Shown here piece by piece: positions 2,783 to 17,748 of a stretch of 18,570 nucleotides of DNA (within the stretch, counting starts at the first letter, position 1; each line of letters opens with the position of its first letter). Below the pieces are notes generated by a model. It searched no databases and was not told where the DNA came from. It saw nothing but the letters and a program-made list of their open reading frames with translations. The position numbers and the translations under genes are program-made. Source of the stretch: Bryobacteraceae bacterium (GTDB lineage Bacteria; Acidobacteriota; Terriglobia; Bryobacterales; Bryobacteraceae); NCBI GenBank assembly GCA_030039005.1, contig JASHQT010000512.1, forward strand, positions 1 to 18,570. Direction: 5' to 3'.

Positions 2783-2788
2783 AGAAGT

Positions 2789-4417
2789 TTAAGCGAGACC
2801 GAGCGCCTGGAACATCGCGATGCGCTGCGCGCGAATGGGATCGTCCACCACTTTGCTCACGTTGTTGATGACCATCGTCGGCCGGTCCTTCGGATTAAAC
2901 GCCGGCCAGTGCGGCAGCTTGGACGTGTTGGGGTCGCCCGAGCGAGCGAACGCGATCCAGGTATCGCTGAGTTTATCGGCCAGCGCCATGGCGTCGGCGC
3001 CGCCTCCGGTGAGCGCGCGCGAGATTTGCACGTTATCGAAGGCGAACGGAATCTCCATGGTGTGCGGCGAGTGCAGGCGGCCGCCCTGCGCGGGGCTGTC
3101 CCAGGTGAAGTAATACAAGTGGACGGGGCCGCGGCCCAAAGCCGCGCGGCGTTCGGCAATTTTCATCACCGGCGCGCCATAACGGTAATCGCTGGCGATC
3201 AGGAAATATAGATCCGACGGCGAGGCGCCCGGATTCGCTTTTCGATACACCTCGATCATCCCGTCAGTGTGCTCGCCCACCAGCGTCTTTACACGGCTAC
3301 GCATGCCGTCTTCGTCGAGCGAGAACGCCTGAGGGTCGCTGCCCTCGCTGAACAGGGTCATTTCCGTGCGGGTGTGACCCAGCATCAGCGGCACGTCTGC
3401 CGAGATCGGCGAAGCAGCGGGATGGAAGGGGTGGTGCGGGATGGCGCTGCCATCCACGGTGGGCGAGAAGCCCTGCGTCATTTGATCCGCGTCGCCCATG
3501 TCCTTCACGACGGCGAAATAAGCGCTCATGATGCGCTCCACGGACATTTCCTGCAGGCGGCGCACGTCGGATTTGCCGACGTCCAGCTTCGCCAGCAACA
3601 TGCCGGCTACGCGAATGGCTTGCTCGCGCTCCACCAGCTTGATGGTGGGGCCGCTTTCGATCACCGCGCGATGAAACAGGCCTTTGGCCGAAGGCATGGC
3701 GAGCAGCGTGCCGACCTTGCGGCCGCCGCCCGATTGACCGAAGATCATCACGGTATTGGGATCGCCCCCGAAATTTCCGATATTCTTGCGGACCCAGCTG
3801 AGCGCGTGCACGATGTCGAGCATGCCGGCGTCGCCAGAGGATGCAAATTCGGAGCCGCCGAATTCGGCGAGATAGGTGAAACCGAGGGCGTTCAGGCGAT
3901 GGTTAATCGTTACCACCACCACGTCGCCGCGCCGCGCGAGATTGGTGCCGTCGGTCCCGGGCGAAGAACCGGAGCCGCTCACGAATCCGCCGCCATGGCA
4001 CCAGAACAGCACCGGCCGCTTGCGCCCATCGTTCACCGCGGGCGTCCAGATATTCAGGACCAGGCAGTCTTCACTTTCGGGCGGCAGATTCGCGCTGGCG
4101 GTGGAAAGCGGCGAAACCCGGCGCGGCGCGGCGGGATTGCTCTGGGGTGTGCTGGGGCCGAAGTTTAGTGCGTCGCGAATCCCGGCCCAGGGCGCGGGGT
4201 CCTTCGGCGGCATGAAGCGATTTTCGCCGGCCGTGCTCGCGCCGTAGGGAACGCCTTTGAAGATTTTGATGCCATGCGCTTCCTCGCCGCGAACTTTGCC
4301 GAAGGCCGTTTCCGCGACCACGTAAGTGGCGCCGGACTGCGCGCGCGCGAGTACGGCCGCTGCGGGCGCCGAAGCCAGCAGCGAGACTTGTTTCAAGAAT
4401 GTACGACGATTCGTCAT
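2789..4417 (-). CDS. Type B carboxylesterase with Tat-like signal
   Basis: A 542-residue alpha/beta-hydrolase of the type B carboxylesterase/lipase family, predicted to hydrolyse carboxylic esters outside the cytoplasm. The ATG at 4417 is chosen over a TTG nine codons upstream because it follows GAGGAGG and begins MTNRRTFLKQ, a twin-arginine-like n-region with a hydrophobic stretch to about residue 26. Visible motifs are the oxyanion-hole HGGG (141-144), EDCLVLNIWTP (family signature 2, about 116-126) and the nucleophile elbow GQSGG with S229. The likely acid is E352 (HTRTEMTLF) and the likely base H452 (HTMEIPFAF). It follows the HEAT-repeat gene by 57 bp on the same strand and may share its transcript. 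Substrate is unknown. Confidence 0.92.
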   Translation of the reverse strand: MTNRRTFLKQVSLLASAPAAAVLARAQSGATYVVAETAFGKVRGEEAHGIKIFKGVPYGASTAGENRFMPPKDPAPWAGIRDALNFGPSTPQSNPAAPRRVSPLSTASANLPPESEDCLVLNIWTPAVNDGRKRPVLFWCHGGGFVSGSGSSPGTDGTNLARRGDVVVVTINHRLNALGFTYLAEFGGSEFASSGDAGMLDIVHALSWVRKNIGNFGGDPNTVMIFGQSGGGRKVGTLLAMPSAKGLFHRAVIESGPTIKLVEREQAIRVAGMLLAKLDVGKSDVRRLQEMSVERIMSAYFAVVKDMGDADQMTQGFSPTVDGSAIPHHPFHPAASPISADVPLMLGHTRTEMTLFSEGSDPQAFSLDEDGMRSRVKTLVGEHTDGMIEVYRKANPGASPSDLYFLIASDYRYGAPVMKIAERRAALGRGPVHLYYFTWDSPAQGGRLHSPHTMEIPFAFDNVQISRALTGGGADAMALADKLSDTWIAFARSGDPNTSKLPHWPAFNPKDRPTMVINNVSKVVDDPIRAQRIAMFQALGLA

Positions 4418-4474
4418 GGGCCTCCTCGATTCAAAGCTACTCAATTCAGAGTTGCTCAGTTTAGGGCTCCCGAG

Positions 4475-5377
4475 TCAGGGTTGAGCTTTCGGCGGAGCCG
4501 TCTGGGTAAGGCGACGCTTGCGTGGCGCGGTTTTGGACTTGCTTTTTATGGCCTCCAGCCGCAGATAACCGGCGGCCGCACGCAGGCGGACGCCTTGGTT
4601 CTTGTCGTCGAGCAAGGGGATGATGTCGGTCTCGAACGCGGGCTCATCGCGCAGCACCAGCGCGTGCACGCCGGCGGCGCGGACGGACCAATCCTTATCC
4701 GTGAGCGCTCCCTTCAGGGCCGCCAGAGTTTCCGGATCTTTGTCTTTTTCGAGCAGCAGAGCGGCGGTAGCGCGGCCCGATACCGACGGATCGGAAAGCA
4801 GCGCTTCCATGGAAGAGATGCCTTCGCCCAAGCCCGGAACCGGCGCCAAGCCGGCTCCCTGTTTCACGGCGAACAGGAACGCGGTTCTGGGCGTGTGCAG
4901 CATGCGCAGTGCGTCGCGCTTTTGCTTGGCGATGTATCCGGAGGAGGCTTTGGTTTCGCCGCTCAGGACGGAGAGCAGAACCTTCTTGCCCTCCACGTCG
5001 TGCAGCGCCCACAAGGAGCGCGCGGCAGCGAAGCTGACTTCGGGAACGTCATCGTTCAGCGCCTTGTGAAGCGCCGCCACGGTGCGCCCGTTCTTGATTT
5101 CGGCGAGGCTCGAAATCGCGGCCAGCCGCACTTCGACGTCTTTGTCGTCGAGGAGCGCTTCGAGTTCGGAAGGAAACGGCTCGGTGGATCCCACCAGGCT
5201 TAGCGCGATCGCCGCCTGTTTGCGCGTGTCCGGGTTTTTGTCTTGGAGGGCTTTTCCCAAAATGTCCTGGCATTGCTGGTCACGGCCCGGCGAAGACGGC
5301 GCCGGCGCCGGGGCAGGCGCTGTCTGGCACGGCGCGAGAACGGAGGTGAGAAGCACAACCAGTAAGGCGCGACGCAT
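4475..5377 (-). CDS. Secreted HEAT-repeat protein
   Basis: A 300-residue protein with an N-terminal signal sequence (MRRALLVVLLTSVLAP) followed by a Pro/Ala-rich linker (about 20-30) and alpha-helical HEAT/PBS-lyase-type repeats. Repeat cores read as D-x-x-V/S-x-x-R-x-A-A-x-x-L near residues 48-62, 80-92, 112-124, 197-209, 228-240 and 259-272. The C-terminus is basic and low-complexity (KSKSKTAPRKRR). The frame opens further upstream to 5593, but the ATG at 5377 has GGGGAG six bases ahead and is the first start that gives a signal peptide. The Cys at 17 follows LAP, which is a poor lipobox, so soluble periplasmic export seems more likely than lipidation. HEAT scaffolds usually mediate protein binding; no catalytic motif is seen. 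Confidence 0.85.
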   Translation of the reverse strand: MRRALLVVLLTSVLAPCQTAPAPAPAPSSPGRDQQCQDILGKALQDKNPDTRKQAAIALSLVGSTEPFPSELEALLDDKDVEVRLAAISSLAEIKNGRTVAALHKALNDDVPEVSFAAARSLWALHDVEGKKVLLSVLSGETKASSGYIAKQKRDALRMLHTPRTAFLFAVKQGAGLAPVPGLGEGISSMEALLSDPSVSGRATAALLLEKDKDPETLAALKGALTDKDWSVRAAGVHALVLRDEPAFETDIIPLLDDKNQGVRLRAAAGYLRLEAIKSKSKTAPRKRRLTQTAPPKAQP

Positions 5378-5406
5378 ATGGATCTCCCCAAAGAAATGCG
5401 CTCTCC

Positions 5407-5412
5407 AGTATA
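5407..5412 (-). promoter_or_regulatory. Possible -10 element for the HEAT-repeat gene
   Basis: On the minus strand the hexamer reads TATACT, about 30 bases before the ATG at 5377. That would give a leader of roughly 20-25 nt containing the GGGGAG ribosome site. No TTGACA-like -35 is seen at 16-18 bases upstream, so this is a weak call. Confidence 0.25.
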
Positions 5413-5493
5413 CGTCTCTCCTAATCCCTCGCGTGGCAGCCAGCCTACGCGCGGCGCGGCGGGCCGTAATCCGTCCATAAGGCATCGGAAAAT

Positions 5494-5593
5494 GTGGCGC
5501 ACGCACTTTGCGTGCCGCGCAGGCAATCATGCCCGCGGTGTTTTTCTTGGCGTTCACAAAGTGTGAACGCGGCACGTTGAGAACGTGCGCCAC
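5494..5593. repeat. BIME-like element: two inverted REPs around a central REP palindrome
   Basis: This is a 100-bp nested structure. A perfect 10-bp outer inverted repeat is formed by GTGGCGCACG (5494-5503) and CGTGCGCCAC (5584-5593). The left arm continues into a 7-bp hairpin, GCACGCA/TGCGTGC with loop CTT (5499-5515). The right arm is its counterpart on the other strand, GCACGTT/AACGTGC with loop GAG (5572-5588). Between them sits a perfect 9-bp hairpin, GCGTTCACA/TGTGAACGC with loop AAG (5550-5570). The central stem is identical to the stems bordering the RAYT gene at 15831-16492. The outer units begin with GTGG, the head typical of RAYT-associated REPs (GTRG). It carries no coding sequence and is a likely non-autonomous element. 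Confidence 0.75.
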
Positions 5594-5765
5594 GCCCTCT
5601 CCCCGCCCATCGGGTGCGCTGAATACCTGATCCCACCTCTCGAAACCATCCGCCTCGAGGACAAACTTTGCTGGCTTACGGGCGGATTACGGGCGCGGCG
5701 AGGAACTGGAAATCTCGTGCATTCCGCATTTGTGATATAACGCAGTGAGTTAGCCGGGAGGTCCT

Positions 5766-6794
5766 ATGGATTTGAGGCGCATTTTGCCTGGAGTATGGCT
5801 GGCATCCATTGGCTTTTTGATTCCCTCCGTGTTCGGCGACACTTATTCCATCATCCTGCATGGCAAAGTGCAGATGGAAGACGGCTCGCCTCCGCCTGTC
5901 ATTGTGATGGTGGAACGCGTGTGCAGCAACCAGTTCGGAGACATGCCGGGCGTGCAAACCGACAAAAAGGGGGAGTACATCTGGCGCATGGATATCGACC
6001 CGATGGAGGCGCGCAACTGCGTGCTCCGCGTCAACCATACCGGCTATTCCTCCACCGCGGTGGAGGTCTCCGGCTCGGACGGGTCACTCCACACCACGCT
6101 CGATCTTCCGCCGATCAAGCTTCATCCCACCGCGCCCGATCCCTACACGCTGAATTTTTCCGACAAAGACATCCCTGGGCGCGCCAGGAAGGATTGGTTA
6201 GCGGCTTCCAAGGCTGTGGACAATCAGAATCTCCCGGAGGTCGCGCAGCATCTAGAACAGGTGACCGCGGCGGCCCCTAAGGCGGCGCAGGCGTGGCAGG
6301 ACCTCGGCATCATAGACGAAAAGCTCCAGAAGACCGCCGAGGCCCGCACGGCCTACGAACACGCCATCGCGATCGATGCCAAGCTGCTTCCAGTCTATGT
6401 CACGTTAGCGCGAGTGTGCGTCAAAACCAAGGACTGGAACTGCGTGACCAAGAGCGCGGACACCTTGATCTCGCAGGACAGCAAGAATAGTTATCCGGAA
6501 ATCTACCTGCATCAGGCGGTGGCTCGTTATGAGTTGAAGGACCTGAAAGGCGCCCAGGAGAGCGCGGAAGAAGCGATTCGCCGGGCTGCTAAGAATAGCT
6601 TGCCGAGAGCGCAGTACGTGCTGGGACGGATACTGGAAGCCAATGGTAATTTGAACGGCGCCGAGCAGCACATGGAGGAATATTTGAAGCTCCAGCCAGG
6701 CGCGCCGGATATCGACGTGATCCGCGGCCACATCGCCGGGCTGAAGAACCCGCTGGCGCCCGGCGCCGATCCGGATTTAGAAGTGCTGTATTAA
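5766..6794 (+). CDS. Secreted TPR protein with N-terminal carboxypeptidase-regulatory-like domain
   Basis: A 342-residue protein. Residues 1-24 form a signal peptide (hydrophobic 7-22, cleavage near VFG-24). Residues about 27-120 look like a beta-sandwich of the carboxypeptidase-regulatory/CnaB-like kind, with the phrases GKVQMEDGSPPP, TDKKGEYIW and LRVNHTGYSS; C53 and C85 could form a disulfide. Residues about 140-315 are tetratricopeptide repeats, clearest at AWQDLGIIDEKLQKTAEART (176-195) and ARYELKDLKGAQESAEEAI (253-271). The start follows GGGAGG by 4 bases. Proteins of this build are common in Acidobacteriota and act as extracytoplasmic binding or assembly factors; the partner is unknown. 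Confidence 0.82.
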   Translation: MDLRRILPGVWLASIGFLIPSVFGDTYSIILHGKVQMEDGSPPPVIVMVERVCSNQFGDMPGVQTDKKGEYIWRMDIDPMEARNCVLRVNHTGYSSTAVEVSGSDGSLHTTLDLPPIKLHPTAPDPYTLNFSDKDIPGRARKDWLAASKAVDNQNLPEVAQHLEQVTAAAPKAAQAWQDLGIIDEKLQKTAEARTAYEHAIAIDAKLLPVYVTLARVCVKTKDWNCVTKSADTLISQDSKNSYPEIYLHQAVARYELKDLKGAQESAEEAIRRAAKNSLPRAQYVLGRILEANGNLNGAEQHMEEYLKLQPGAPDIDVIRGHIAGLKNPLAPGADPDLEVLY

Positions 6795-6811
6795 TCGCTC
6801 CCATCATTCAG

Positions 6812-6837
6812 GCTAATGCAGCCAAGCTAATGCGGCC
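6812..6837 (+). repeat. Short tandem repeat, GCTAATGCRGCC x2
   Basis: Two 12-bp copies, GCTAATGCAGCC (6812-6823) and GCTAATGCGGCC (6826-6837), differ at one base and lie 14 bp apart between the TPR gene and the next gene. They could be a regulator binding site or simple slippage; no function is inferred. Confidence 0.3.
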
Positions 6838-6901
6838 GATGCGGAGCACGACCGGCCCTGGCAGGCCTGGAAACGGGCGCGGATGGTTGCGCGGAGCGCG
6901 A

Positions 6902-6907
6902 TACAAT
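6902..6907 (+). promoter_or_regulatory. -10-like hexamer placed for a leaderless transcript
   Basis: TACAAT, one mismatch from the -10 consensus, ends 6 bases before the ATG at 6914, so a standard start point would fall at or next to the start codon. No Shine-Dalgarno is present between it and the ATG, and no clear -35 is seen. Leaderless initiation is an inference. Confidence 0.35.
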
Positions 6908-6913
6908 ACCGCC

Positions 6914-7837
6914 ATGCCACGTTTGCGATTGTTGGGAATCCTCGCGATATTTGCCGCCGGAAGCGCTTTCGGCGCGGGCTGCGACCGCGCATGTTTGAAG
7001 ACCGCGCTCGATCAGTACCTCAACGCCGTGGTCAAGCACGATCCGGCCGCTGCGCCGCTCTCGGTAGGATTCCGTCAGACCGAAAACGGGGTGGTTCGCC
7101 GTCCCGGCACGGGAATGTGGCAGAGCGCGAAGGCACTGGGGACGATCGAGCGGCGCTACTTCGATGTCGAACGCGGGCAGGCGGGTTATTTCGGAACCTT
7201 CGAAGAAGAGAGCGGCACCGATATCGTGACGGTGCGAGTGCGCGTGGAGGATCGCAAGGTCAGCGAAGCCGAGTGGTACATTTCGCGTAAAGGCGCGGCG
7301 GGCATCGGAACCGGCGCGGGCGCGCAGGCCAATGCCGCCTTTCACGATCCCGATAATTTGATCGCGCATCCACCGGCCGAGCGCATGGTTCCGAAGGCCG
7401 AGCGGCTCTCGCGCGCCGACATGGTCGCGATCACCAATAGCTATTTCGACGGGCTCACCGCGCACGACGGTACGCTGATCATCGCGTACCCGGGATGCAT
7501 CCGACTGGAGAACGGCTTCGCGACCACGCAGCGCAAGCTTCCGAACGGAACCATGAGCGACTGCACATCCAACGGCGCGATGGCTAATATTTTCGCGGTG
7601 ACGGCACGCCGCTACCCGATCGTGGACGAAGAAGCGGGCGTGGTGCTGGGCCTGGGTGTGTTCGAGCGCAAGCCGGGTGTGGCCATGCGGCGCAATTCGT
7701 TCAGCGAGTGGTTTGTGATCGAGCAAGGCAAGATCCGGGCCATCTATTCAGCGATGTATTATCCCGATCAGGATGCGATCACCCCGAATTGGCCGCCTTA
7801 CGACGGAAATTGGCCGGTGGCGCCTCCGCCGAAATAA
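6914..7837 (+). CDS. Secreted protein with two tandem NTF2-like repeats
   Basis: A 307-residue exported protein with no confident family name. Residues 1-21 are a signal peptide (cleavage near FGA-21), immediately followed by CDRAC with a possible disulfide pair (C23/C27). The sequence is duplicated internally. LDQYLNAVVKHD then RQTENG (about 32-59) is matched by TNSYFDGLTAHD then RLENG (about 174-201), and each unit ends in a strand-rich block with a R-K-V/I-S/R-x-A/I-x-x-Y pattern (114-123 and 272-282). Small alpha/beta cone (NTF2/SnoaL-like) units fit this helix-then-sheet layout; some such regions are annotated as DUF8021-like. The ATG at 6914 is preferred over an upstream in-frame start (6830) because it creates the signal peptide. 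No ribosome site is seen. The Pro-rich tail ends in VAPPPK. Confidence 0.75.
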   Translation: MPRLRLLGILAIFAAGSAFGAGCDRACLKTALDQYLNAVVKHDPAAAPLSVGFRQTENGVVRRPGTGMWQSAKALGTIERRYFDVERGQAGYFGTFEEESGTDIVTVRVRVEDRKVSEAEWYISRKGAAGIGTGAGAQANAAFHDPDNLIAHPPAERMVPKAERLSRADMVAITNSYFDGLTAHDGTLIIAYPGCIRLENGFATTQRKLPNGTMSDCTSNGAMANIFAVTARRYPIVDEEAGVVLGLGVFERKPGVAMRRNSFSEWFVIEQGKIRAIYSAMYYPDQDAITPNWPPYDGNWPVAPPPK

Positions 7838-7853
7838 GTGCGCGCGCAGCGGC

Positions 7854-7859
7854 TATACT
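7854..7859 (+). promoter_or_regulatory. -10-like hexamer before the small ORF and secA
   Basis: TATACT ends 9 bases before the GTG at 7869. If used, the transcript would start within a few bases of that codon, giving a near-leaderless message that carries the small ORF and then secA. No good -35 is visible. Confidence 0.35.
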
Positions 7860-7868
7860 GAGATTCTG

Positions 7869-8135
7869 GTGAACAAGCGAGCCATCACCTGGTTGCTGGC
7901 GGCGCTGCTGGCGCTCGCGGGCGCGGCGGCTGCGCCTGCGTCGACCGCGCGCACTCGCGATGCCGGAATGCTCATCGTCTGGATCGCGCAAGATCGCGCC
8001 GAACAGCAAATTCCAGTCCGGGCGCGAGTGGCTCGTTGCGCACCCGTGCTGGTGCGATCCGGCTACGAAGCCCCCGCCCCAACCCGGATTTTCGCCGCGT
8101 TCCTTTATCAACGTCCTCCTCCTGCTCTTCGATAG
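7869..8135 (+). CDS. Small exported protein upstream of secA; candidate SecM-like secretion monitor
   Basis: An 88-codon ORF starting at GTG. It begins with a textbook signal peptide: NKR n-region, hydrophobic core TWLLAALLALAGAAAA, and likely cleavage near residue 22. The mature part (about 65 residues) has no recognised domain. It ends FLYQRPPPALR, with three consecutive prolines at residues 83-85 of 88, encoded CCT CCT CCT. Polyproline is a known ribosome-slowing motif, and E. coli SecM also stalls at a proline four residues from its end. The stop is 29 bases before the secA ATG. The final codons form the left arm of a hairpin that pairs with the secA ribosome site. Codons in the first half have GC-rich third positions; the last ten do not, as expected if they are also under RNA-structure constraint. 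No Shine-Dalgarno precedes the GTG, so coding status is unproven. Confidence 0.5.
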   Translation: MNKRAITWLLAALLALAGAAAAPASTARTRDAGMLIVWIAQDRAEQQIPVRARVARCAPVLVRSGYEAPAPTRIFAAFLYQRPPPALR

Positions 8136-8160
8136 CTCCCAGATCGAAGAAGAAAGGAGG
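8118..8160 (+). promoter_or_regulatory. RNA hairpin sequestering the secA ribosome-binding site
   Basis: Two stacked stems can form in the mRNA. TCTTCGAT (8126-8133) pairs perfectly over 8 bp with ATCGAAGA (8143-8150) around a 9-nt loop. CCTCCT (8118-8123) pairs over 6 bp with AGGAGG (8155-8160), which is the Shine-Dalgarno four bases before the secA ATG. The two stems are separated by a small internal loop (GC versus AGAA). The left arm lies in the last six codons and stop of the upstream ORF, so ribosomes translating or stalled there would open the structure and expose the secA site. The pairings are seen directly; the regulatory role is inferred. Confidence 0.6.
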
Positions 8161-8164
8161 CGCC

Positions 8165-10315
8165 ATGCCTAAGAAAAGCGCGGGCCAGTTCCTGCGCAAT
8201 TTGTTTCGCGGTCCGGCTGGGTCCGGATCGTTGCTTGCTACCATCAACCGGTGTCGCGAGGAATTGGACGCCCTAAGCGACTCCGAACTCAAGACGATCT
8301 CATGGCGCGACATGGATCTGGCGGGAGTTATCGCGTTGACGGCCGCAGCCGCCGAACGCGTGCTGGGCCTGAAGATGTTCGACGTCCAGTTCGAAGGCGC
8401 GCTCGCGCTCACCGAGGGAAAGATCGCCGAAATGCAGACCGGCGAAGGCAAAACGCTAGCCGCCGTTCCCACCGTCGCGTGGTTCGCGCGCGAGGGTGCG
8501 GGCGTCCACGTCCTGACGGTGAACGATTACCTGGCGCGGCGCGACGCCCAATGGATGGGCGGCATCTACGAATTCCTGGGGCTTTCAGTGGGGTTCATCC
8601 AGCAAGGCATGAATGCGGACGAGCGCCGCCGTGCCTACGCCTGCGACATCACCTACGCGACGGCCAACGAAATCGGCTTCGATCTATTGCGCGACGGGCT
8701 GGCGCTCTATCCGGGCGAGCAGGTGCAACGGGCCTTCGCGACGGCCGTGATCGACGAAGCTGATTCGATCTTGATCGATGAAGCGCGCATTCCGCTAGTG
8801 ATCGCGGGCGGCGAAGCAGGCGCGGAACCGCTGGCATACCGGGTGGACCATGTCACGCGTCATTTCCGCCGCTGGCGTCATTTCACGCTGGACGAATACG
8901 CGCGCAATATCGCGCTTACTGACGCGGGCATTCGCGCGGTGGAAACTTCGTTCGGCTGCGGCAATCTCTTCGATGAACACAATCTTGCGCTGCTGACCGC
9001 GGTCCAGGATTCCCTCCACGCGCACGCGCTGTTGCGCCGCGACGTCGACTATCTGGTGAAGAACGGCGCGATCGAATCCGTCGACGAATTCAAGGGCCGC
9101 ATCGCGGAGAACCGGCGCTGGCCGGCAGGTTTGCACACTGCCATCGAGGCCAAGGAAGGCGTGGCGCTTAAGACGCAGGGGCGGATTCTCGGGTCCATCA
9201 CCTTGCAAAACCTGATGTCACTTTATCCGCAGATCTGCGGGATGACCGGGACCGCCGCTACGCAGGCCGAAGAATTCCGTCTGGTGTACGGGCTGGAGGT
9301 GGAAGTGATTCCCACCCATCGGCCGGTCATTCGCGTGGATTCGCCCGACGTCGTCTTCGCGCATCGAGGGGACAAGGAACTGGCCGTGCTCGGTGAAATC
9401 CGCAAAATGCACGCCACAGGCCGGCCGGTGCTGGTGGGAACGCGCAGCGTGGAGGAGTCCGAACGCTTGAGTGCGCGGCTTTCCGGTTCAAATCAAGCGG
9501 AGGTTCCTCACCAGGTGCTGAACGCGCGACATGAAGAGCTGGAAGCCGGAATGATCGCCCGCGCCGGCGAGCGCGGCGCCGTCACGATTTCGACCAATAT
9601 GGCTGGCCGCGGCACGGATATCCGATTGGGCGAGGGCGTGGCCGAGCTCGGCGGATTGCACGTGATCGGGACCAATCGCCACGAGAGCCGCCGCATCGAT
9701 CATCAATTGCGCGGCCGCGCGGGGCGGCAGGGCGATCCGGGCAGCTCGCGATTTTTCGTCTCGCTCGAAGACGATCTGCTGGTGAAATACGGTGGCCAGC
9801 GGCGCGGCGCGGAGCGGGATTTCGACTTGGATATCGAGCAGATCCAACGCATCGCCGAGGGACAAAATCTCGAAATCCGGCGCTTTCTGCAAAAATACGA
9901 GAGCGTCATCGAGGGACAGCGGCAGAAGATGCAGCGTCGGCGCCAGGCGATCCTGATCGGCGAGACGGCCGTTTCCTCTGAGTTGGAGCAATTGGTCGCC
10001 CTCCGCACCATCGACGATCTCTGGGCCGATTATTTGTTTACCATCACCGATCTCCGTGAAGGCATCCAGTGGATTTCCTGGGGCGGCCGCGACCCGCTGC
10101 ACGAGTATCTAGCTTCGGTCCATGCCATCTTCACCAAGCTCGAAGAAGATCTGGACAGCGAAATCGCGACTCGCCTGGAAGCGGCTCAGACATCAGGCTT
10201 GGACCCCACCGAGCGCGGCGCCACTTGGACCTATCTGACAACAGACCAGCCGTTCGGAACGGGCACCGAGCGGATCCTGCGCGGTTTGCTGCGCAAGAAC
10301 AGGAATCAGGGCTGA
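8165..10315 (+). CDS. secA: SecA-type preprotein translocase ATPase, short form lacking the helical wing domain
   Basis: A 716-residue SecA homologue: the cytoplasmic motor that drives unfolded preproteins through SecYEG. Start is the ATG at 8165 behind AAAGGAGG. Motor motifs are intact: Walker A QTGEGKT (91-97), IDEAD (196-200) followed by SILIDEARIP, the RRWPAGLHTAIEAKEGV segment (317-333), MAGRGTDI (479-486) and RGRAGRQGD (516-524). A preprotein cross-linking region lies between NBD1 halves (about 210-320). After the DIR..L-Q-YE/ESV helix (568-582) the sequence passes almost directly to the scaffold/two-helix-finger part (TIDDLWADYL to DPLHEY, 615-647). The helical wing domain is therefore missing, and there is no C-terminal zinc-binding tail. 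Standard SecA is about 800-900 residues, so this is probably a second, specialised SecA (SecA2-like). Confidence 0.88.
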   Translation: MPKKSAGQFLRNLFRGPAGSGSLLATINRCREELDALSDSELKTISWRDMDLAGVIALTAAAAERVLGLKMFDVQFEGALALTEGKIAEMQTGEGKTLAAVPTVAWFAREGAGVHVLTVNDYLARRDAQWMGGIYEFLGLSVGFIQQGMNADERRRAYACDITYATANEIGFDLLRDGLALYPGEQVQRAFATAVIDEADSILIDEARIPLVIAGGEAGAEPLAYRVDHVTRHFRRWRHFTLDEYARNIALTDAGIRAVETSFGCGNLFDEHNLALLTAVQDSLHAHALLRRDVDYLVKNGAIESVDEFKGRIAENRRWPAGLHTAIEAKEGVALKTQGRILGSITLQNLMSLYPQICGMTGTAATQAEEFRLVYGLEVEVIPTHRPVIRVDSPDVVFAHRGDKELAVLGEIRKMHATGRPVLVGTRSVEESERLSARLSGSNQAEVPHQVLNARHEELEAGMIARAGERGAVTISTNMAGRGTDIRLGEGVAELGGLHVIGTNRHESRRIDHQLRGRAGRQGDPGSSRFFVSLEDDLLVKYGGQRRGAERDFDLDIEQIQRIAEGQNLEIRRFLQKYESVIEGQRQKMQRRRQAILIGETAVSSELEQLVALRTIDDLWADYLFTITDLREGIQWISWGGRDPLHEYLASVHAIFTKLEEDLDSEIATRLEAAQTSGLDPTERGATWTYLTTDQPFGTGTERILRGLLRKNRNQG

Positions 10316-10328
10316 ATCGCTGGCGGGC

Positions 10329-10976
10329 TTACGCGACCAAAGCCACACAGCCGGCGATGATCAGCGCGCCCGCCCACAGCAGATCCAGATTGAACCAGCC
10401 CTTGCGCAGCAGGGAGAGCCCGAGTTTGCGATACACCACGATCGCGATCAGAGCGGTGACGCTTAAGTAGCCGAACGTGTGGACCAGCGTGGCGGACACG
10501 CCGGTCCAAGCGCCGGCGGCAGGGGCCGCGTGCATGTGGTGTTCATGCCCGCCGGCCATCGTGCTCGGCGCGGCGGAATGCAGCACAATCGGCAGCACCA
10601 TCAAGCCCGCGCCATGCGCGCTGGCCATGAGGAAGGACCAGAACATCAGATCCCGAAAACCCACTTGCATTCCGCCCCACGCGAAATGCTTGCGCCGCAG
10701 CAGGCGAAAAATGCCGAGTGCAATCAGGGCCAGGGCCACAACGATCTGCACGTATCCCAGCGGCAGAACAATCTGAATCAGTCCCGCGAGCGCCACGGCC
10801 AAGCCGATGGAAAGTGCGTGCCCCAAACCGATGGGCACGATCGCGCGAGCCACGGCCTTAGTGGCATGCTCCTGCATCCCTCGCGCGACTGCGAACAGCC
10901 ACCCCATTCCGGGGTTGATGCCGTGATAGGCGCCCAGCAAAAATAGCGCGGTCCATCCCAACGAACCCGGCGTCAT
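10329..10976 (-). CDS. Polytopic membrane protein with His-rich loop, coupled to SBP56
   Basis: A 215-residue inner-membrane protein with about six hydrophobic segments (roughly 7-31, 46-70, 74-92, 108-133, 160-181, 197-214). Conserved-looking membrane motifs are HGINPGMGW (18-26), GHALS (52-56) and HGAG (121-124), and a loop at 142-150 is His-rich (GGHEHHMHA). Paired His/Gly motifs in helices and a His-rich loop recall metal transporters of the NicO/RcnA/HupE kind, but membership is not certain. The ATG at 10976 overlaps the TGA of the preceding SBP56 gene as ATGA; a TTG three codons upstream is also open. The coupling suggests the protein serves the metalloenzyme SBP56, perhaps by metal supply, which is an inference. 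Confidence 0.75.
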   Translation of the reverse strand: MTPGSLGWTALFLLGAYHGINPGMGWLFAVARGMQEHATKAVARAIVPIGLGHALSIGLAVALAGLIQIVLPLGYVQIVVALALIALGIFRLLRRKHFAWGGMQVGFRDLMFWSFLMASAHGAGLMVLPIVLHSAAPSTMAGGHEHHMHAAPAAGAWTGVSATLVHTFGYLSVTALIAIVVYRKLGLSLLRKGWFNLDLLWAGALIIAGCVALVA

Positions 10977-12367
10977 GAATAGCAATACGAATCCGAAGAG
11001 GCGTCGCCGCCCTCCAGACGCACCTGATGCCCACGCAACTCGCCGAATTCCAGGAAGAATTTCGGATCAAGCTCCATCCCACCATCGGGCTGCGCGTCCA
11101 GCTTCACCATCCAGCTTCGAACGCCTTCCGGATAAAATTGCGCGTCCCAAGGCGAATAGAGGGAATTGGTGAAATAAACGCGCTTGCCGTCGCGGCTCAA
11201 CTCCACCATTTGCGGACCGCCGTTCAACGGCTTCTGCGGCGCTTTCGGATGCGCGGCATGGCGCACGATGCCACCCAGATGCACCGAGCCGGTCTTCTTG
11301 GGATGAAACGGATCGCTCACGTCGTATTGCAGGAACTCGCCGGTGCCCCAGCAGGAAACGTACAGAAAGCGGTCGTCGAGCGAGAGATTGATGTCGGTAA
11401 TCAACGGGGGCACCGCTTTGAAACCTTGCAGCAAGGGCGGCAGCAACTCCGGATCGGCGGGTTCGGCGGGGATGTCGATGATCTTTTTAACGCCCCATTT
11501 GCCGTCTTCGCGATGCCAGGTCCAGATGGACGCGGAGAGATCCTTCAGCGAGACCACCACTCCCAGGAAACCATATGCGCGCGTGGGATCATGCGCGGGC
11601 CGCAGCTCGAGCGCCATTTGATATTCGGGGCCAAGCTCGATTTCCTGCAGGTGACGCCGCTTTCGGAGATCCCAAATGTGCAGTTTGTGACCGTAGCCGC
11701 CCTTGAGCAGAATCTCCGGATTCAAACCGTGTCGCACCATGTTGGGCGTACCCCACTCGCTGGTGACCACGGTGTCCAATCCCAAGTGCCACCAAAAATC
11801 GTAGGCCAGTTGCTGCGGGCCGCGATCGAGCTCCCACTTGCCGAGAATGTCAAAGCTGTCGTGATCGATGACGAAGATTCCGCCCGGCCCGTCGCCCGCG
11901 GGCGTTCCCAGCGCGCTGGCATAAATTCCCTCCGGACCGCAGTGGATGGTGTGCGGCGACGCGTAGCCGGCGCGATCGGCCAGCGTTTCCGGCTCGATTA
12001 CCTTCACGATTTGCGGCTTCTTCGGGTCCGGCTTGGTGTCCACGACATGAATGCGCGAGGAGTTGATGCCCGGTACGATCAGGTATCTCCGTTCGATATG
12101 CGGATGCGGCGCGTACGGGCACAAGCTGGCGCTGCAGGCGTTCCAACCAAAATGATGCAGCTCGTCGCCCACGTTCGGCATGTCGAGCTGGCCGACGATG
12201 TGCCCGTAGCCGGTGGACTGCGGATCGACGTCGACCACCCCAAGAGCGTCCGGACGCTGATTGCCATTGGCATTGAGCATGGCGACATACGCCAGCTTTT
12301 CGGGAGGGGCTGCCATCGCCAGCTTGGGAGACGGGTAAAAACTCGGGTCGGGGCGCCAGAGGCTCAT
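10973..12367 (-). CDS. Selenium-binding protein 56 / methanethiol oxidase family
   Basis: A 464-residue seven-bladed beta-propeller protein of the SELENBP1/SBP56 family. Characterised members (human SELENBP1, Hyphomicrobium MtoX) oxidise methanethiol to formaldehyde, H2S and H2O2 and use copper. Recognisable family blocks are GDELHHFGWNACS (67-79, with C78), ASPHTIHCGPEG (136-147), TSEWGTPN (202-209), KLHIWDL (228-234), SLDDRFLYVSCWGTGE (329-344) and the C-terminal GHQVRLEGGDASSDSYCYS. Histidines 71/72, 139 and 142 are candidate copper ligands. The usual selenium-site pair appears as C78 and C83 rather than adjacent cysteines. No export signal is visible. Start is the ATG at 12367 with AAAGGA eight bases ahead. 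Downstream partner is a coupled membrane protein rather than the SCO1/MauG pair seen in some mto operons. Confidence 0.92.
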   Translation of the reverse strand: MSLWRPDPSFYPSPKLAMAAPPEKLAYVAMLNANGNQRPDALGVVDVDPQSTGYGHIVGQLDMPNVGDELHHFGWNACSASLCPYAPHPHIERRYLIVPGINSSRIHVVDTKPDPKKPQIVKVIEPETLADRAGYASPHTIHCGPEGIYASALGTPAGDGPGGIFVIDHDSFDILGKWELDRGPQQLAYDFWWHLGLDTVVTSEWGTPNMVRHGLNPEILLKGGYGHKLHIWDLRKRRHLQEIELGPEYQMALELRPAHDPTRAYGFLGVVVSLKDLSASIWTWHREDGKWGVKKIIDIPAEPADPELLPPLLQGFKAVPPLITDINLSLDDRFLYVSCWGTGEFLQYDVSDPFHPKKTGSVHLGGIVRHAAHPKAPQKPLNGGPQMVELSRDGKRVYFTNSLYSPWDAQFYPEGVRSWMVKLDAQPDGGMELDPKFFLEFGELRGHQVRLEGGDASSDSYCYS

Positions 12368-12368
12368 C

Positions 12369-12383
12369 GGAAAGATCCTTTCC
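12369..12383 (-). promoter_or_regulatory. Perfect palindrome overlapping the SBP56 ribosome site
   Basis: GGAAAG (12369-12374), spacer ATC, CTTTCC (12378-12383). On the minus-strand message this is a 6-bp stem with a 3-nt loop that contains the AAAGGA ribosome site and ends two bases before the ATG. It could be a repressor operator or a translation-limiting hairpin. The rest of the divergent gap to the sigma-factor gene (12384-12533) shows no clear promoter. Confidence 0.4.
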
Positions 12384-12533
12384 CAGGCATTCTAGCGCGT
12401 GCTATCGGCAGAAACGCGGCCCGAGCGCCGCCGGTGCGAAAATTGGGTCAGAGCCGGAAACATTAGGGACGGCCGTTACGAAGTGGTTTCGTCTTTTTTG
12501 CCCCGGATTGCGTCTCTGGATTGGAGCCGAAAT

Positions 12534-13082
12534 TTGATCTTTCGGGAGGTTGAGGACCGCGACCTGATCGCCAAGGCGCGACGAGGGCACGTGGAAGCCT
12601 ACAACGTGCTCGTCTCGCGCTGGGAGAAACGTGTCTTCAATTATCTCCTGCGATTGGTGGGCGAGCGTGAGGACGCTCTCGATCTCAGCCAGGACGTGTT
12701 TTTGAAGGCCTATCAGAATTTGAAAAAGCTCGACGATCCGGCGAAATTCCCCGCCTGGCTGTTTCGCATCGCGCACAATGAGGCGTACTCGTTACTACGG
12801 CGGGCGAAGCCGGAGGGCGAAATCACCGCTGAACCCCGGATAGCCGAAGCGAGCGGCGGGCTGTTTCCCATCGAATCGGCGCTCGCGGTGCGTAGCGCGC
12901 TCGCCAAGCTCTCGGGCGATCAGCGCGAGGCGGTGCTGCTCAAGGTCTACCAGGGATTCAAATTCGAGGAAATGGCGGAAATTCTCTCCTGCCCGGTCTC
13001 GACGGTGAAGTCCCGTTTGTACACGGCGCTCGATCTTCTGAAACAAACATTGGCTCCAGTGAATAGCGGAGGCGCGCAATGA
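12534..13082 (+). CDS. ECF-type RNA polymerase sigma factor
   Basis: A sigma-70-family ECF factor, about 182 residues from the TTG at 12534. Region 2 spans roughly DLIAKARRGHVEAYN to DPAKFPAWLFRIAHNEAYSLLRR, with the DALDLSQDVFLKAYQ helix that contacts core polymerase and the -10. Region 4 is LSGDQREAVLLKVYQGFKFEEMAEILSCPVSTVKSRLYTALDLLKQ, a helix-turn-helix for the -35. The start is uncertain: TTG 12534 has GGAG seven bases ahead and sits just before the conserved domain; GTG 12483 (after GGACGG) and GTG 12399 are in frame but would add residues with no family resemblance. The stop overlaps the next ATG (ATGA), pairing it with the anti-sigma factor. By analogy with other ECF pairs, it may activate its own operon, which here continues into the type II secretion genes. 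Confidence 0.9.
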   Translation: MIFREVEDRDLIAKARRGHVEAYNVLVSRWEKRVFNYLLRLVGEREDALDLSQDVFLKAYQNLKKLDDPAKFPAWLFRIAHNEAYSLLRRAKPEGEITAEPRIAEASGGLFPIESALAVRSALAKLSGDQREAVLLKVYQGFKFEEMAEILSCPVSTVKSRLYTALDLLKQTLAPVNSGGAQ

Positions 13083-13651
13083 GTCCAGAAACGACTTGCT
13101 CCAGCAATGTGGATTTGAAGGCATATATTTTGGGTGAAGCGGCGGCGGGCGAACGCAGCGCGGTGGAAGATCACCTGCGCGCGTGCGAAGCCTGCCGCGA
13201 AGAGTTGGACCGGTTGAAGCTGACGCAGGTCGCGCTGGCGTCGCTCCCGGACGAAGTGATCCCGCAGCGCATCGCGTTCGTTTCCGATCGCGTGTTTGAG
13301 CCGCGCTGGTGGCAGACGATCTGGCGCTCGGGGCCGGTGATGGGGTTCGCCTCAGCGATCGTGTTAGCGGCAGCGATTCTGGTGCATGGCTTCGGCGCGG
13401 CGCCCGCCGCCATCGATACCGCGCAGATCGAGAAACGTGTGGATGCCCAGGTGAACGCGCGGGTGACTGCGGCGGTCAGCGCGGCGCAGGCCCAACAGTC
13501 CGCCGAATTCGCGAAGGAATTGCAGGCAAGCGAGGCTCGTTTTGAACGCCAGCGCCAGGACGATCTGGCGGATGTGCAACAGTACGCCGCCTATTTAAAA
13601 CAACAGATGGCCCGCTTCGAAGTGGCCAGCAATGGAGGATACGGACAATGA
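13079..13651 (+). CDS. Membrane-anchored zf-HC2 anti-sigma factor
   Basis: A 190-residue anti-sigma factor expected to hold the upstream ECF sigma at the membrane. The N-terminal cytoplasmic zinc motif reads H32-x3-C36-x2-C39 (VEDHLRACEACREEL) within the usual LKAYILGEAAAGER helix. One transmembrane segment lies at about 85-107. The outer part, 112-182, is a long Ala/Gln/Arg-rich helix with coiled-coil heptad character (QIEKRVDAQVNARV, EARFERQRQDDLADVQQYA). It starts within the sigma stop (ATGA) and ends overlapping the next start in the same way, so all three should be translated in step. The coiled-coil outer domain may sense a periplasmic partner, possibly the next gene product. The family call is firm; the signal is unknown. 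Confidence 0.88.
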   Translation: MSPETTCSSNVDLKAYILGEAAAGERSAVEDHLRACEACREELDRLKLTQVALASLPDEVIPQRIAFVSDRVFEPRWWQTIWRSGPVMGFASAIVLAAAILVHGFGAAPAAIDTAQIEKRVDAQVNARVTAAVSAAQAQQSAEFAKELQASEARFERQRQDDLADVQQYAAYLKQQMARFEVASNGGYGQ

Positions 13652-14178
13652 AAATCGCTGCTGTCGCTTTACTGGCGCTGTGCGCGCTACCGGGCGGGTC
13701 CCTAGCTGACAACCCGAAGGTCAACCGGGCCATGATCGAAGCCATGCAACAGAGCATGGACCGCAAACTGGCCGCGATCTGGCCCCAGGATCCGGCCGAA
13801 GTGCTGGGCCTCTCCCAGGGCGCATACATCCAAGGTTACGGGGCCGTGTTTTTGGGCGAACTCAACGCCGCGCCTACCGCCGGGATCACTCCATTCCATC
13901 CGTCCGTGACGCCGGAGGAGATCCGCCGGACGCACGATAAGAAGCTGCAGCGCCTCGCGGCCATTCGCAGCGCCATGCGTTCCGTGTTGATGGATTCGGC
14001 GCGGTCGCTGGACGCCGTTCCGGCTGTTGAGCAGGTCACCGTCGGGCTGTCGCTGTTTTATTGGAAATGGGAGAATCGCGACGGCCTGCCCGGGCAGATC
14101 GTGATGCACGCCCAGCGCAAGGCGCTTCTCGAAGCCGCCAACGCCGAGCAGGCTTCCATTTCCACCGAAGAGTTTTAG
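13648..14178 (+). CDS. Small secreted protein of unknown function in the sigma/anti-sigma operon
   Basis: A 176-residue protein with a clear signal peptide (MKIAAVALLALCALPGGSLA, cleavage near 20). The mature part is predicted mostly helical and has no motif I recognise. Distinct stretches are VNRAMIEAMQQSMDRKLAAIWP (25-46), LSQGAYIQGYGAVFLGELNAAP (55-76) and VTVGLSLFYWKWENRDGLPGQIVM (130-153). Its ATG overlaps the anti-sigma stop (ATGA), and gspE begins three bases after its own stop. The position suggests an extracytoplasmic partner of the anti-sigma factor or an accessory factor for secretion; both are inferences from context only. Confidence 0.8.
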   Translation: MKIAAVALLALCALPGGSLADNPKVNRAMIEAMQQSMDRKLAAIWPQDPAEVLGLSQGAYIQGYGAVFLGELNAAPTAGITPFHPSVTPEEIRRTHDKKLQRLAAIRSAMRSVLMDSARSLDAVPAVEQVTVGLSLFYWKWENRDGLPGQIVMHAQRKALLEAANAEQASISTEEF

Positions 14179-14181
14179 CCC

Positions 14182-15822
14182 ATGCGGCTGGGCGAGATCC
14201 TGATCGGGCGCAAGCTGATCACCGAGGAGGACCTCGAGCGGGCGCTCGAACTGCAAAAGGAGCGCGGCGACAAGATCGGCAAAACGCTGGTCGACATGGG
14301 CTTCATTGCCATGCGCGACGTACTGGCCGCGCTCTCCGAGCAACTGGAAGTCCCGCTGGTCTCCATCGACGCTCCCCCCGTCGTCTCGCCGGAAACCGAA
14401 ACCCTCTCCCCCCGCTTTCTGCGCCAATTCCGCTGTCTGCCCATCAGCCGTGACGACCATACCATCACGCTCGCCATGGCCGATCCCCTGGATGTGGAAA
14501 CCATCGCGGCGGTTCGCAAGTGCACCGGGCTCAAAATCAGCACTGTGCTCGCGCCGGAGCAGGAAATCGTCGATGCGATCGACAAGTACTACGGCGAATC
14601 GGCCGCGCGCTCGGAGGCGGAGTTCGAATTCCAGGCCGGCGAGATGTCGGAAGACCTGGAGCACTTGCGCGACATGGCGAGCGAAGCGCCGGTCATTCGC
14701 CTGGTGAACGCCATCATCGCGTCGGCGGTCGAAAAGCGCGCCAGCGATATTCACCTGGAGCCGTTCGAGAAGGAATTTCGCATCCGCTACCGCATCGACG
14801 GCGTGCTGTACAACCAGGACCCGCCGCCGCGCGAACTCAAGGCTGCGATGATTTCGCGCGTGAAGCTGATGGCCAAGCTCAACATCGCCGAACGCCGCCT
14901 GCCGCAGGACGGCCGCATCAAGATCAAGACACTGGGACGAGAAGTGGATTTGCGTGTCTCCACGCTGCCCACCCTGTACGGGGAAAGCGTGGTGATGCGT
15001 TTGCTCGACCGCTCGGCCGGCGATTTCTACGATCTTGGCCGCCTGGGATTCGACCGGCACATGCTGAATCGCATGGAGTACTACACGTCGCTGCCACACG
15101 GAATTTTTCTGGTGACTGGACCCACCGGCAGCGGCAAGTCCACCACGCTCTATTCGGCGCTCAAGCGCATCAATCTCACCGACAAGAAGATCATCACCAT
15201 CGAAGATCCGGTCGAGTACCAAATGGACGGCATCAATCAGCTCCATGTGAATACGCAGATCGGGCTGACGTTCGCCTCCGGGCTAAGGCACATCGTGCGC
15301 CAGGACCCCGACGTCATCATGGTGGGTGAGATTCGCGACCGCGAGACCGCCGATATCGCGATCCGCTCCTCGCTCACCGGGCATTTCGTCTTCTCGACGC
15401 TGCACACCAACGACGCGCCCAGCGCCATCACGCGCCTGAGCGACATGGGCATGGAGAACTACTTGATTACGTCGTCATTGGTGGCGGTGCTGGCGCAGCG
15501 GCTGGTGCGCGTGATCTGCGACCATTGCAAGGAAACGAATGGAACGCGCATCGCGCCGGATGGCAGCACCGTCGTGTGCTATATCGGACGCGGCTGCGAG
15601 CACTGTTTCGGTTCCGGCTACACGGGGCGCGTGGGCATTTTCGAGCTGATGGAGTTGGGCGATGAGATCCGGCAGCTCATCATGAAAAATGCCGACGCCG
15701 CCGCCATCACCAACGTGGCGCGGCGCAACGGCATGCGCAATCTGCGCGAAGACGGCTGGTTGAAGGTGATGAACGGCGTCACGACGCCCGACGAGGTGAT
15801 GCGTGTCACGCAAGAGTTCTGA
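14182..15822 (+). CDS. gspE: Type II secretion system ATPase GspE (PilB/GspE family)
   Basis: A 546-residue cytoplasmic hexameric ATPase that powers pseudopilus assembly. The N-terminal GspE_N/MshEN-type domain begins MRLGEILIGRKLITEEDLE and spans about 1-140. The ATPase core has Walker A GPTGSGKST (313-321), an Asp box (about 331-349, ending EDPVEYQ), Walker B DVIMVGEIRD (377-386, E383) and the His box STLHTND (405-411). The metal-binding tetracysteine is present as CDHC (446-449) and CEHC (472-475). Length is typical. PilB and GspE are close relatives; the gspF-gspG-gspH order downstream decides for type II secretion. Start is three bases after the upstream stop. The last 17 bases overlap the antisense end of the RAYT gene. 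Confidence 0.93.
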   Translation: MRLGEILIGRKLITEEDLERALELQKERGDKIGKTLVDMGFIAMRDVLAALSEQLEVPLVSIDAPPVVSPETETLSPRFLRQFRCLPISRDDHTITLAMADPLDVETIAAVRKCTGLKISTVLAPEQEIVDAIDKYYGESAARSEAEFEFQAGEMSEDLEHLRDMASEAPVIRLVNAIIASAVEKRASDIHLEPFEKEFRIRYRIDGVLYNQDPPPRELKAAMISRVKLMAKLNIAERRLPQDGRIKIKTLGREVDLRVSTLPTLYGESVVMRLLDRSAGDFYDLGRLGFDRHMLNRMEYYTSLPHGIFLVTGPTGSGKSTTLYSALKRINLTDKKIITIEDPVEYQMDGINQLHVNTQIGLTFASGLRHIVRQDPDVIMVGEIRDRETADIAIRSSLTGHFVFSTLHTNDAPSAITRLSDMGMENYLITSSLVAVLAQRLVRVICDHCKETNGTRIAPDGSTVVCYIGRGCEHCFGSGYTGRVGIFELMELGDEIRQLIMKNADAAAITNVARRNGMRNLREDGWLKVMNGVTTPDEVMRVTQEF

Positions 15823-16411
15823 TCGAACCTGTGGCGTTCACACCTGTGGCGTTCACACTCATGTGAACGCTTCCCCTGTATTTCGGGTTAGCACTCGACC
15901 ACGCATAACGCTCGGGCTTCGCCACCAGTCCAGCTTTAACAGGATTCCACTCGATATACCGCGCGATCCTATGCCATTCCGGTTCGTTTCTGACGTAGTG
16001 GTCGTACGATTCCCGCTGCCAAAACGGCTCTCCCGTTCGTCGGAGGACGCGATTTGCTTCCCGTGCCGTTGCGCCCTTCAGCGACTTCAACAACAGACTC
16101 GGGTCAATTCCAGGCAGCAGAAGCACGTGGACATGATTCGCCATCATGACCCACGCCCCAAGCTGGTAATGGCCGAAGCCTTCGCCACGAAGCAGCGACC
16201 TAACAACTATTTTGGCGATCGTTTCCTGGCGCAAGTACAAAGGCCCCGAATGTGCGCTGTCCAGATACCGATCCACCGTAGCAAACATCACTCCATCCAC
16301 CACCTTCCGCGCCGGTGGGAATTGCGAATGTGGAAGACTTCCGTGCAGGCGCCAGGTTACGAAGAGCCACCGATTCCTCGGATAGATGTGCGAAAGATGG
16401 GGGTGGGTCAT
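15806..16411 (-). CDS. rayT: RAYT transposase (REP-associated tyrosine transposase, Y1/HUH type)
   Basis: A 201-residue single-domain Y1 transposase of the IS200-related RAYT family, which recognises REP hairpins and can cleave and join single-stranded DNA. The opening HLSHIYPRNRWLFVTWRLHGSLP region, the metal-binding HUH triad ANHVHVLLLP (H93, H95), the catalytic-tyrosine region WQRESYDHYVRN (Y136 most likely) and the tail YIEWNPVKAGLV are all characteristic. ATG 16411 is chosen; a TTG at 16438 would add nine residues. No ribosome site is clear. The C-terminus reads through the left REP units as SVNATGVNATG, and the stop codon lies in antisense within the end of gspE. It appears intact and therefore potentially active. 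Confidence 0.9.
   Translation of the reverse strand: MTHPHLSHIYPRNRWLFVTWRLHGSLPHSQFPPARKVVDGVMFATVDRYLDSAHSGPLYLRQETIAKIVVRSLLRGEGFGHYQLGAWVMMANHVHVLLLPGIDPSLLLKSLKGATAREANRVLRRTGEPFWQRESYDHYVRNEPEWHRIARYIEWNPVKAGLVAKPERYAWSSANPKYRGSVHMSVNATGVNATGSIRTLA
15831..15870 (+). repeat. Left REP unit of the RAYT element
   Basis: Two direct copies of GTGGCGTTCACA (15831-15842 and 15846-15857) are followed by TGTGAACGC (15862-15870). The second copy forms a perfect 9-bp stem (15849-15857 with 15862-15870) around the loop CTCA. The GTGG head precedes the stem, matching the GTRG tetranucleotide known for RAYT-linked REPs. Confidence 0.85.
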
Positions 16412-16446
16412 CAACGCGTAAGTGGAGTTGTTGAACAAAAAATCTC

Positions 16447-16492
16447 GCGTTCACACGAGTGTGAACGCCACAAGCACGAGTGTGAACGCCAC
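16447..16492 (-). repeat. Right REP unit of the RAYT element
   Basis: GCGTTCACA (16447-16455) pairs perfectly with TGTGAACGC (16460-16468) around the loop CGAG. The 19-bp unit CACGAGTGTGAACGCCACA occurs at 16454-16472 and again at 16475-16493, a 21-bp period. The first arm can therefore pair with either copy, giving alternative hairpins directly before the gspF start codon. Confidence 0.85.
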
Positions 16493-16496
16493 ACGT

Positions 16497-17705: not shown

Positions 17706-17748
17706 GAAGAGCCGCGCCCGTGAGGAAGCGGTGGCTGGAGGTGATGCA

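Follow-up and report, generated by a model that had tools for sequence, protein, structure and literature searches.

The window analysed here, an 18,570-nucleotide (nt) forward-strand stretch from a Bryobacteraceae bacterium of the Acidobacteriota (assembly GCA_030039005.1, contig JASHQT010000512.1, positions 1 to 18,570), carries a small upstream open reading frame (uORF) directly before a gene for a SecA-type export motor. The uORF (7869..8135, on the plus strand like all features below) has 88 codons, a GTG start and a TAG stop at 8133-8135, and the secA2-like gene (8165..10315, 716 amino acids) begins with ATG 8165, 29 bases past that stop. A first-pass annotation had described a signal-peptide frame of this length, ending in RPPPALR before a secA start, and its coordinates are confirmed. 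Based on orthologues, selection, codon choice and RNA folding, we propose that the uORF is probably a translation-arrest leader for the downstream gene.

Results

The uORF peptide begins MNKRAITWLLAALLALAGAAAAPAS and ends in LYQRPPPALR, with L-Y-Q-R-P-P-P occupying residues 79-85 and three residues following. Hydropathy and alignment place a signal peptide at about residues 1-23, so that about 60 residues separate it from the motif; residue 57 is the single cysteine. The peptide gave no Pfam or NCBIfam match, and Rfam at gathering threshold gave none in 7700-8400. GTG 7869 was taken as the start because aligned orthologues begin at that residue; the alternative in-frame ATG 7773 falls within an upstream ORF (6830-7837). 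The frame is further defined by profile relatives and column conservation, including an IVWI patch (codons 36-39, 7974..7985), about 46 residues N-terminal of the motif, whose I-V-W is kept in most relatives.

The codons of R82-P83-P84-P85 (CGT CCT CCT CCT, 8112..8123) are the predicted arrest site, and their three proline codons, CCTCCTCCT (8115-8123), provide the 5' arm of a predicted helix with the secA2 Shine-Dalgarno (SD) sequence AGGAGG (8155..8160), 4 nt before the ATG. Inside this helix, folding pairs 8126..8133 with 8143..8150 (TCTTCGAT/ATCGAAGA) in a perfect stem of 8 base pairs, the 5' arm of which would sit beneath a ribosome stalled at PPP. This stem had been described as spanning the stop codon; it takes in only the first stop-codon base.

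The downstream gene encodes a SecA motor with Pfam SecA domains; the housekeeping-type SecAs found in related genomes are longer. Among its high-scoring NCBIfam matches is TIGR04221 (SecA2_Mycobac), at a score of 693.9 that lies under the curated cut-off of 725, and, among the 24 solved chains listed, 4uaq (SecA 2), which we take to be mycobacterial SecA2, is the only one whose best stretch reaches residue 701, the others stopping at or before 611. In all five related genomes a second SecA match accompanies the SecA2-like gene, in open frames of 804-982 amino acids, one of which (L019) is cut by a contig edge. The SecA2-like clade stands apart from three housekeeping-type SecAs in one tree (support 100) and from four in a second. 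The gene has the marks of an accessory SecA2, a shortened motor that in related genomes coexists with a longer housekeeping SecA, and the gene product is probably a SecA2-like accessory SecA; that it is a SecA paralogue, as first annotated, is borne out. Its named relatives are labelled Bryobacterales, Bryobacteraceae, Terriglobia or Acidobacteria. No such uORF was found upstream of the housekeeping-type secA of related genomes at the four loci read (L015-L018).

The search for SecA2-like genes returned 61 of 200 genomes in an order sample (E <= 1e-150), 48 of 399 in a class sample and 32 of 396 in a phylum sample (both E <= 1e-160), the tree putting most of the phylum-sample matches outside the SecA2-like clade. 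We examined 71 loci, 64 from the window, a genome-contig scan and the order sample and seven new ones from the class sample; L004, a duplicate of the L003 match, and L007-L009, with 39-45% identity and from other phyla, were not among the loci scanned. A motif ORF is present at 39 of the 71; it was defined as an ORF just upstream of the secA2-like gene whose N-terminus is hydrophobic and whose last 22 residues contain XPPP or RxPP. Four of the 32 other loci (L030, L093, L097, L122) have less than 180 nt of upstream DNA. The same definition was satisfied by 49 of 4660 control windows (1.1%; overlapping, on both strands of seven long loci, true sites included), and we reject a chance ORF on this comparison. 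The motif is RPPP in 31 uORFs, RAPP in four and LPPP in four, frequencies that are biased because the selection itself demanded a motif; one of those counted, L031, ends in RAPP and has an N-terminus that does not look homologous. Between one and nine residues follow the motif in the 39 uORFs, and 27-129 nt separate the uORF stop from the secA2 start at the 38 loci with an assigned start, these starts having been set by an SD rule that may be wrong for some.

Searches with a profile of 12 uORFs (A1) did not start from secA2 nor require the motif, though the profile contains it, and scored best candidates only (26 per genome in the order sample, 7994 in the protein database). In the order sample they matched 24 of 200 genomes, once each: by coordinates, 21 matches adjoin a secA2-like gene and two a secA2-like piece, and one (G168) lies at a contig edge. 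The class sample gave matches in 21 of 399 genomes, 12 of which had already been counted in the order sample; the nine new ones comprise five adjacent to secA2, two at contig edges (G316, G344) and two weak partial matches (G362, G363), with no SecA beside G362, the one examined. Both matches among 386 phylum-sample genomes had already been counted. From the protein database, the best candidates included at least 94 relatives at E <= 0.01, and no Pfam domain is listed for any of them. In 90 of these 94, XPPP or RAPP lies within the last 20 residues, preceded directly by Q in 89 of the 90 and, before that Q, by F or Y in 87; Arg 4, Pro 23 and Ile-Val-Trp 36-38 are further conserved columns. The expectation that the signal peptide and terminal RPPP would be kept is upheld at many orthologous secA2-like loci.

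The uORF is spread over every main branch of the SecA2 tree. Its presence or absence switches 14 times on that tree without the five loci that have little upstream DNA, and 18 times with them. We read this as an old uORF that has often been lost, repeated gain being the alternative. Three loci (L046, L123 and L124, the last two numbered L084 and L085 in earlier scans) keep a signal-peptide ORF from which the terminal motif is gone, related loci retaining it, and are possible cases of natural loss. At some loci a different ORF abuts secA2 instead, one that by eye is biotin-carboxylase-like in L033, L035 and L040.

Selection was estimated from ten non-overlapping orthologue pairs, two of which share a branch, uncorrected for relatedness. 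The ratio of nonsynonymous to synonymous differences per site (pN/pS) is 0.46 for the whole uORF, 0.39 for the first 28 codons, 0.51 for the middle and 0.06 for the terminal hexapeptide ending with the motif. This hexapeptide shows 4.0 nonsynonymous differences over 132.3 sites and 24.0 synonymous differences over 47.7 sites (pS about 0.5). The uORF is under purifying selection, strongest at the terminal motif, in agreement with what the first-pass annotation had called for. Since the motif residues are kept while their codons vary, the constraint acts on the peptide, and conservation of CCTCCTCCT as RNA only is rejected.

Codon choice at the motif is nevertheless skewed. The proline codons are CCT at 18, 14 and 10 of 34 loci for the first, second and third positions, against 94 of 842 proline codons in secA2 genes and 41 of 279 in uORF bodies, and the arginine codon is CGT at 16 of 33 loci against 52 of 311 in uORF bodies. 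Taking one locus per group of relatives, the first proline is CCT in 12 of 20. The duplex of motif codons and SD averages -8.5 kcal/mol over 34 loci, whereas synonymous draws average -6.4 (Wilcoxon p 1e-5, which like all codon, pairing and folding p-values here ignores relatedness), and falls within the best 10% of draws at 14 of the 34 loci; the pairing in the window is matched by 10% of synonymous draws. The codon, duplex and SD-accessibility tests were made without L031 and L126 (whose peptide is the same as that of L120), both of which are part of the folding described next. The proline codons lean toward CCT, as the idea of an anti-SD would have it, and their direct pairing with the SD is frequent without being a universal rule: at certain loci the partner of the SD is the stretch directly 3' of the motif, and one clade lacks the pairing, as discussed below.

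Folding covered 36 of the 39 uORF loci, leaving aside L047 and L054, with gaps above 100 nt, and L005, with no SD-scored start. The SD is unpaired with a mean probability of 0.17, compared with 0.27 when the upstream part is shuffled; its partner lies in the stretch that a motif-stalled ribosome would cover with a probability of 0.69, and in the motif codons themselves with 0.37 (shuffled, 0.10). Masking the stalled-ribosome stretch lifts SD accessibility to 0.41. In a fixed 75-nt context, the 34 uORF loci used for the accessibility and duplex tests have an unpaired SD probability of 0.20 against 0.27 shuffled (p 0.0014), 10 of 34 falling in the lowest tenth. No SD burial was seen at the 14 loci scored as uORF-less, those with a scored-SD start among the 32 without a motif ORF (0.41 against 0.40 shuffled, p 0.58; 2 of 14 in the lowest tenth), a set in which three loci (L030, L093, L122) are without upstream DNA. 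Two of these, L030 and L093, probably do have a uORF, as their genomes (G168, G316) carry a uORF match at another contig edge. In the fold of the window itself, AGGAGG lies on CCTCCT in two registers, 8118-8123 in the minimum-free-energy structure or 8115-8120 in the centroid.

A -10-like box, TATACT (7854..7859), ends 9 nt 5' of the GTG, and in 24 of 38 uORFs, L031 included, a match to TATACT or TATAAT, one mismatch being allowed, has its end 7-11 nt 5' of a candidate start codon. A box so near the uORF start predicts a leaderless or nearly leaderless mRNA, which suggests that the uORF-secA2 transcript has no leader or a very short one.

In a separate set of 28 phylum-sample loci (L127-L154), nine (L131, L134, L135, L136, L139, L140, L142, L143 and L145) carry upstream of a longer SecA a different hydrophobic ORF of 54-79 residues with RSPP or RAPP at or near its C-terminus, by a looser criterion. 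These nine group together in a single clade (support 100) that represents a different SecA type, and their small ORFs are possibly a second arrest-peptide family in Acidobacteriota.

Discussion

We consider it probable that the uORF serves the secA2-like gene as a translation-arrest leader and monitoring substrate, one distinct from SecM. The peptide is conserved, with selection focused on its terminal motif, it keeps synteny with secA2, its motif codons favour pairing with the SD, and the SD is buried across uORF-bearing loci. Arrest at the motif, release by export and induction of secA2 are what we infer from this pattern. The uORF also has the attributes by which Sec-monitoring peptides were delimited in PMC10987492, namely a small uORF before secA, a localisation signal, a conserved C-terminal motif and a spacer of more than 30 residues.

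In the proposed mechanism, the signal peptide would direct the nascent chain to the export machinery, and the ribosome would stall at R-P-P-P, most likely with P84 in the P site and P85 in the A site, a position borrowed from the uA_LPPP toeprint (PMC10987492). With signal peptide and motif about 60 residues apart, the signal would be outside the tunnel once the motif is at the catalytic centre. When export is slow, the stall would persist and, if the footprint reaches 16 nt beyond the P-site codon, as assumed here, the ribosome would cover the mRNA to about 8134, including the 5' arms 8115-8123 and 8126-8133, which would release AGGAGG 8155-8160 and allow SecA2 to be made. The SD and ATG 8165 would then be free and distant enough for a second ribosome. 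When export is brisk, pulling would free the stall and the hairpin would re-form, with little secA2 translation. The proline codons would hence serve twice, encoding the stall motif and acting as an anti-SD.

Published work on stalling motifs makes such an arrest plausible. When XPPP motifs were tested within NlpD in the absence of elongation factor P (EF-P), RPPP stalled most strongly (PMC4176338), random screens yielded RxPP with Gly, Ala, Ser or Pro at x, and ApdA and ApdP partly retain arrest when Pro replaces Ala in RAPP (both PMC12992588). A uA_LPPP uORF located before secA halts ribosomes of B. subtilis when the third LPPP codon is in the P site (PMC10987492).

Several observations weigh against an arrest leader with a hairpin switch. 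The motif ORF is missing at 28 of the 67 testable secA2-like loci and at three more SecA2-type loci of the phylum sample (L127-L129), so that the absence from orthologues that the first-pass annotation had warned of does apply there, as it does not at the 39 of 71 that carry the ORF. The window hairpin lies within its shuffles (z -1.05; 27 of 200 shuffles fold as well), and against 60 shuffles its SD ranks at 0.48 for accessibility; of the earlier claim that a hairpin encloses the SD, the predicted pairing of AGGAGG on CCTCCT survives, at a stability no better than shuffles. An NRPPP clade (L119-L121, L125, L126) forms no such hairpin. RNAalifold on seven loci recovered the SD helix with two-sided change at none of its eight pairs, and with no compensatory change in that alignment we do not claim the covariation that had been anticipated. 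To this must be added the disregard of relatedness in the p-values. From the literature, EF-P relieved the stall at RPPP in the context that was tested in E. coli (PMC4176338), and the arginine that four of the 39 uORFs replace in LPPP is irreplaceable in ApdA and ApdP. RAPP-like stretches in E. coli and B. subtilis proteins, RPPP included, mostly arrested inefficiently, and uA_LPPP barely arrests E. coli ribosomes in vivo (PMC10987492); the former means that context matters and that a stall motif is insufficient by itself.

Other explanations share part of this evidence. The leader could sense EF-P activity or prolyl-tRNA supply at PPP instead of export, the signal peptide merely disposing of the product, and the strong RPPP stalls without EF-P that EF-P rescues (PMC4176338) would suit it. 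We think this unlikely: the signal-peptide part is itself selected (pN/pS 0.39) and its spacing of about 60 residues fits export monitors, RAPP is the ending of four of the 39 uORFs and is the arrest motif that resists EF-P in ApdA and ApdP (PMC12992588), and an export motor is encoded downstream. We give a similarly small chance to plain translational coupling, in which ribosomes reaching the stop at 8135 would open the hairpin and supply secA2, with no arrest involved. The short gap (29 nt here, 27-129 nt across 38 loci) and the SD-burying hairpin are what such coupling would use, yet it needs neither amino-acid-level conservation of RPPP nor a signal peptide.

A further possibility is that CCTCCTCCT is kept solely as an anti-SD, with RPPP a by-product. 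CCT enrichment would follow from it, but synonymous change in the motif is frequent and the residues stay, RPPP persists in a clade whose SD (AAGGAA) does not pair with the motif, and the F/Y and Q preceding the motif are conserved too; we regard it as very improbable. The small uORF product might instead be exported and have a function of its own beyond the cytoplasm, perhaps as a substrate or regulator of SecA2, and its signal peptide and steady partnership with secA2 would agree. Against such a role, conservation is lowest in the mature middle (pN/pS 0.51), the peptide has no Pfam or NCBIfam match, and the motif lies 1-9 residues from the C-terminus; we find this reading quite improbable. 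An export-monitoring arrest leader is the reading we retain as the most probable.

A wider proposal, to which we give slightly less than an even chance, is that these uORFs form an arrest-peptide family that is old within one Acidobacteriota class, dedicated to SecA2 and reporting load on a second export route, in which the RPPP codons are read twice, as ribosome stall and as mRNA anti-SD, and in which the interchange of RPPP, RAPP and LPPP joins two arrest classes described as unrelated. An arrest leader at this locus would, as far as our searches show, be the first case linked to an accessory SecA instead of the housekeeping one, and the role of SecA2 would become testable, as blocking SecA2-dependent export should raise a reporter. 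The presence of RPPP, RAPP and LPPP in one orthologous family would offer a natural series for how arrest motifs change, and the motif would be a clear case of codons selected for protein and RNA together.

Comparison with known systems

E. coli SecM carries the motif FxxxxWIxxxxGIRAGP near its C-terminus and lies upstream of the housekeeping secA. The uORF resembles it in its signal peptide, C-terminal stall proline and hairpin over the secA SD; it differs in that a SecA2 paralogue lies downstream and the motif codons themselves can pair with the SD. The original label of a SecM-like monitor is withdrawn and SecM membership rejected, with that motif absent and the downstream gene outside the housekeeping-type SecA clade; the nearest kinds are the RAPP-type peptides and the planctomycete uA_LPPP. 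CutF of Rhodobacter capsulatus, upstream of cutO, likewise has a Sec signal peptide, a proline-rich C-terminus and a stem-loop hiding the downstream SD, but needs a copper-binding CxxxC and serves a different target gene (PMC9973294); membership is rejected here, as the peptide has a single cysteine and no CxxxC. Mycobacterial SecA2 (TIGR04221; 4uaq), compared with the downstream gene only, is alike in being an accessory, shortened SecA motor.

Our literature searches found no arrest leader of SecA2. The main text of PMC10987492 contains no Acidobacteri, Bryobacter or Solibacter, its supplements, where a listing is possible, lying outside this statement; its one mention of RPPP concerns a search of the E. 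coli and B. subtilis proteomes, and an apparent "secA2" is secA followed by reference number 24. Literature joining Acidobacteri, arrest peptide and secA amounted to PMC12992588, where, supplements aside, the phylum appears a single time, in the legend of a figure about how frequent the motifs are. Papers joining Acidobacteri and SecA2 dealt, judged by title, only with other subjects.

The RAPP-type peptides (ApcA, ApdA, ApdP and the RQH family; PMC7897499, PMC10951233, PMC10987492, PMC12992588) share a C-terminal R-x-P-P, a localisation signal and a position as uORF of a Sec or YidC gene. Their endings are RAPP, RGPP, HAPP, QAPP or RAGP, whereas the window has RPPP and four of the 39 uORFs RAPP; the motif dominant here is a variant that is partly active in ApdA and ApdP, and the target is an accessory SecA. 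The uA_LPPP uORFs of Planctomycetota (Fujiwara et al. 2024, PMC10987492) are also small, lie before secA and carry a signal sequence and XPPP within the last 15 residues, all of which the uORF of the window shows. They come from Phycisphaerales, UBA1161 and WQYP01 and have LPPP in 45 of 52, whereas here RPPP dominates, the phylum is Acidobacteriota and the target is of SecA2 type, the likeness being drawn from their published description. The kind of element is therefore already known, and what appears to be new is the mix of motifs, the phylum, as far as seen, the accessory SecA as target, and motif codons that would double as an anti-SD.

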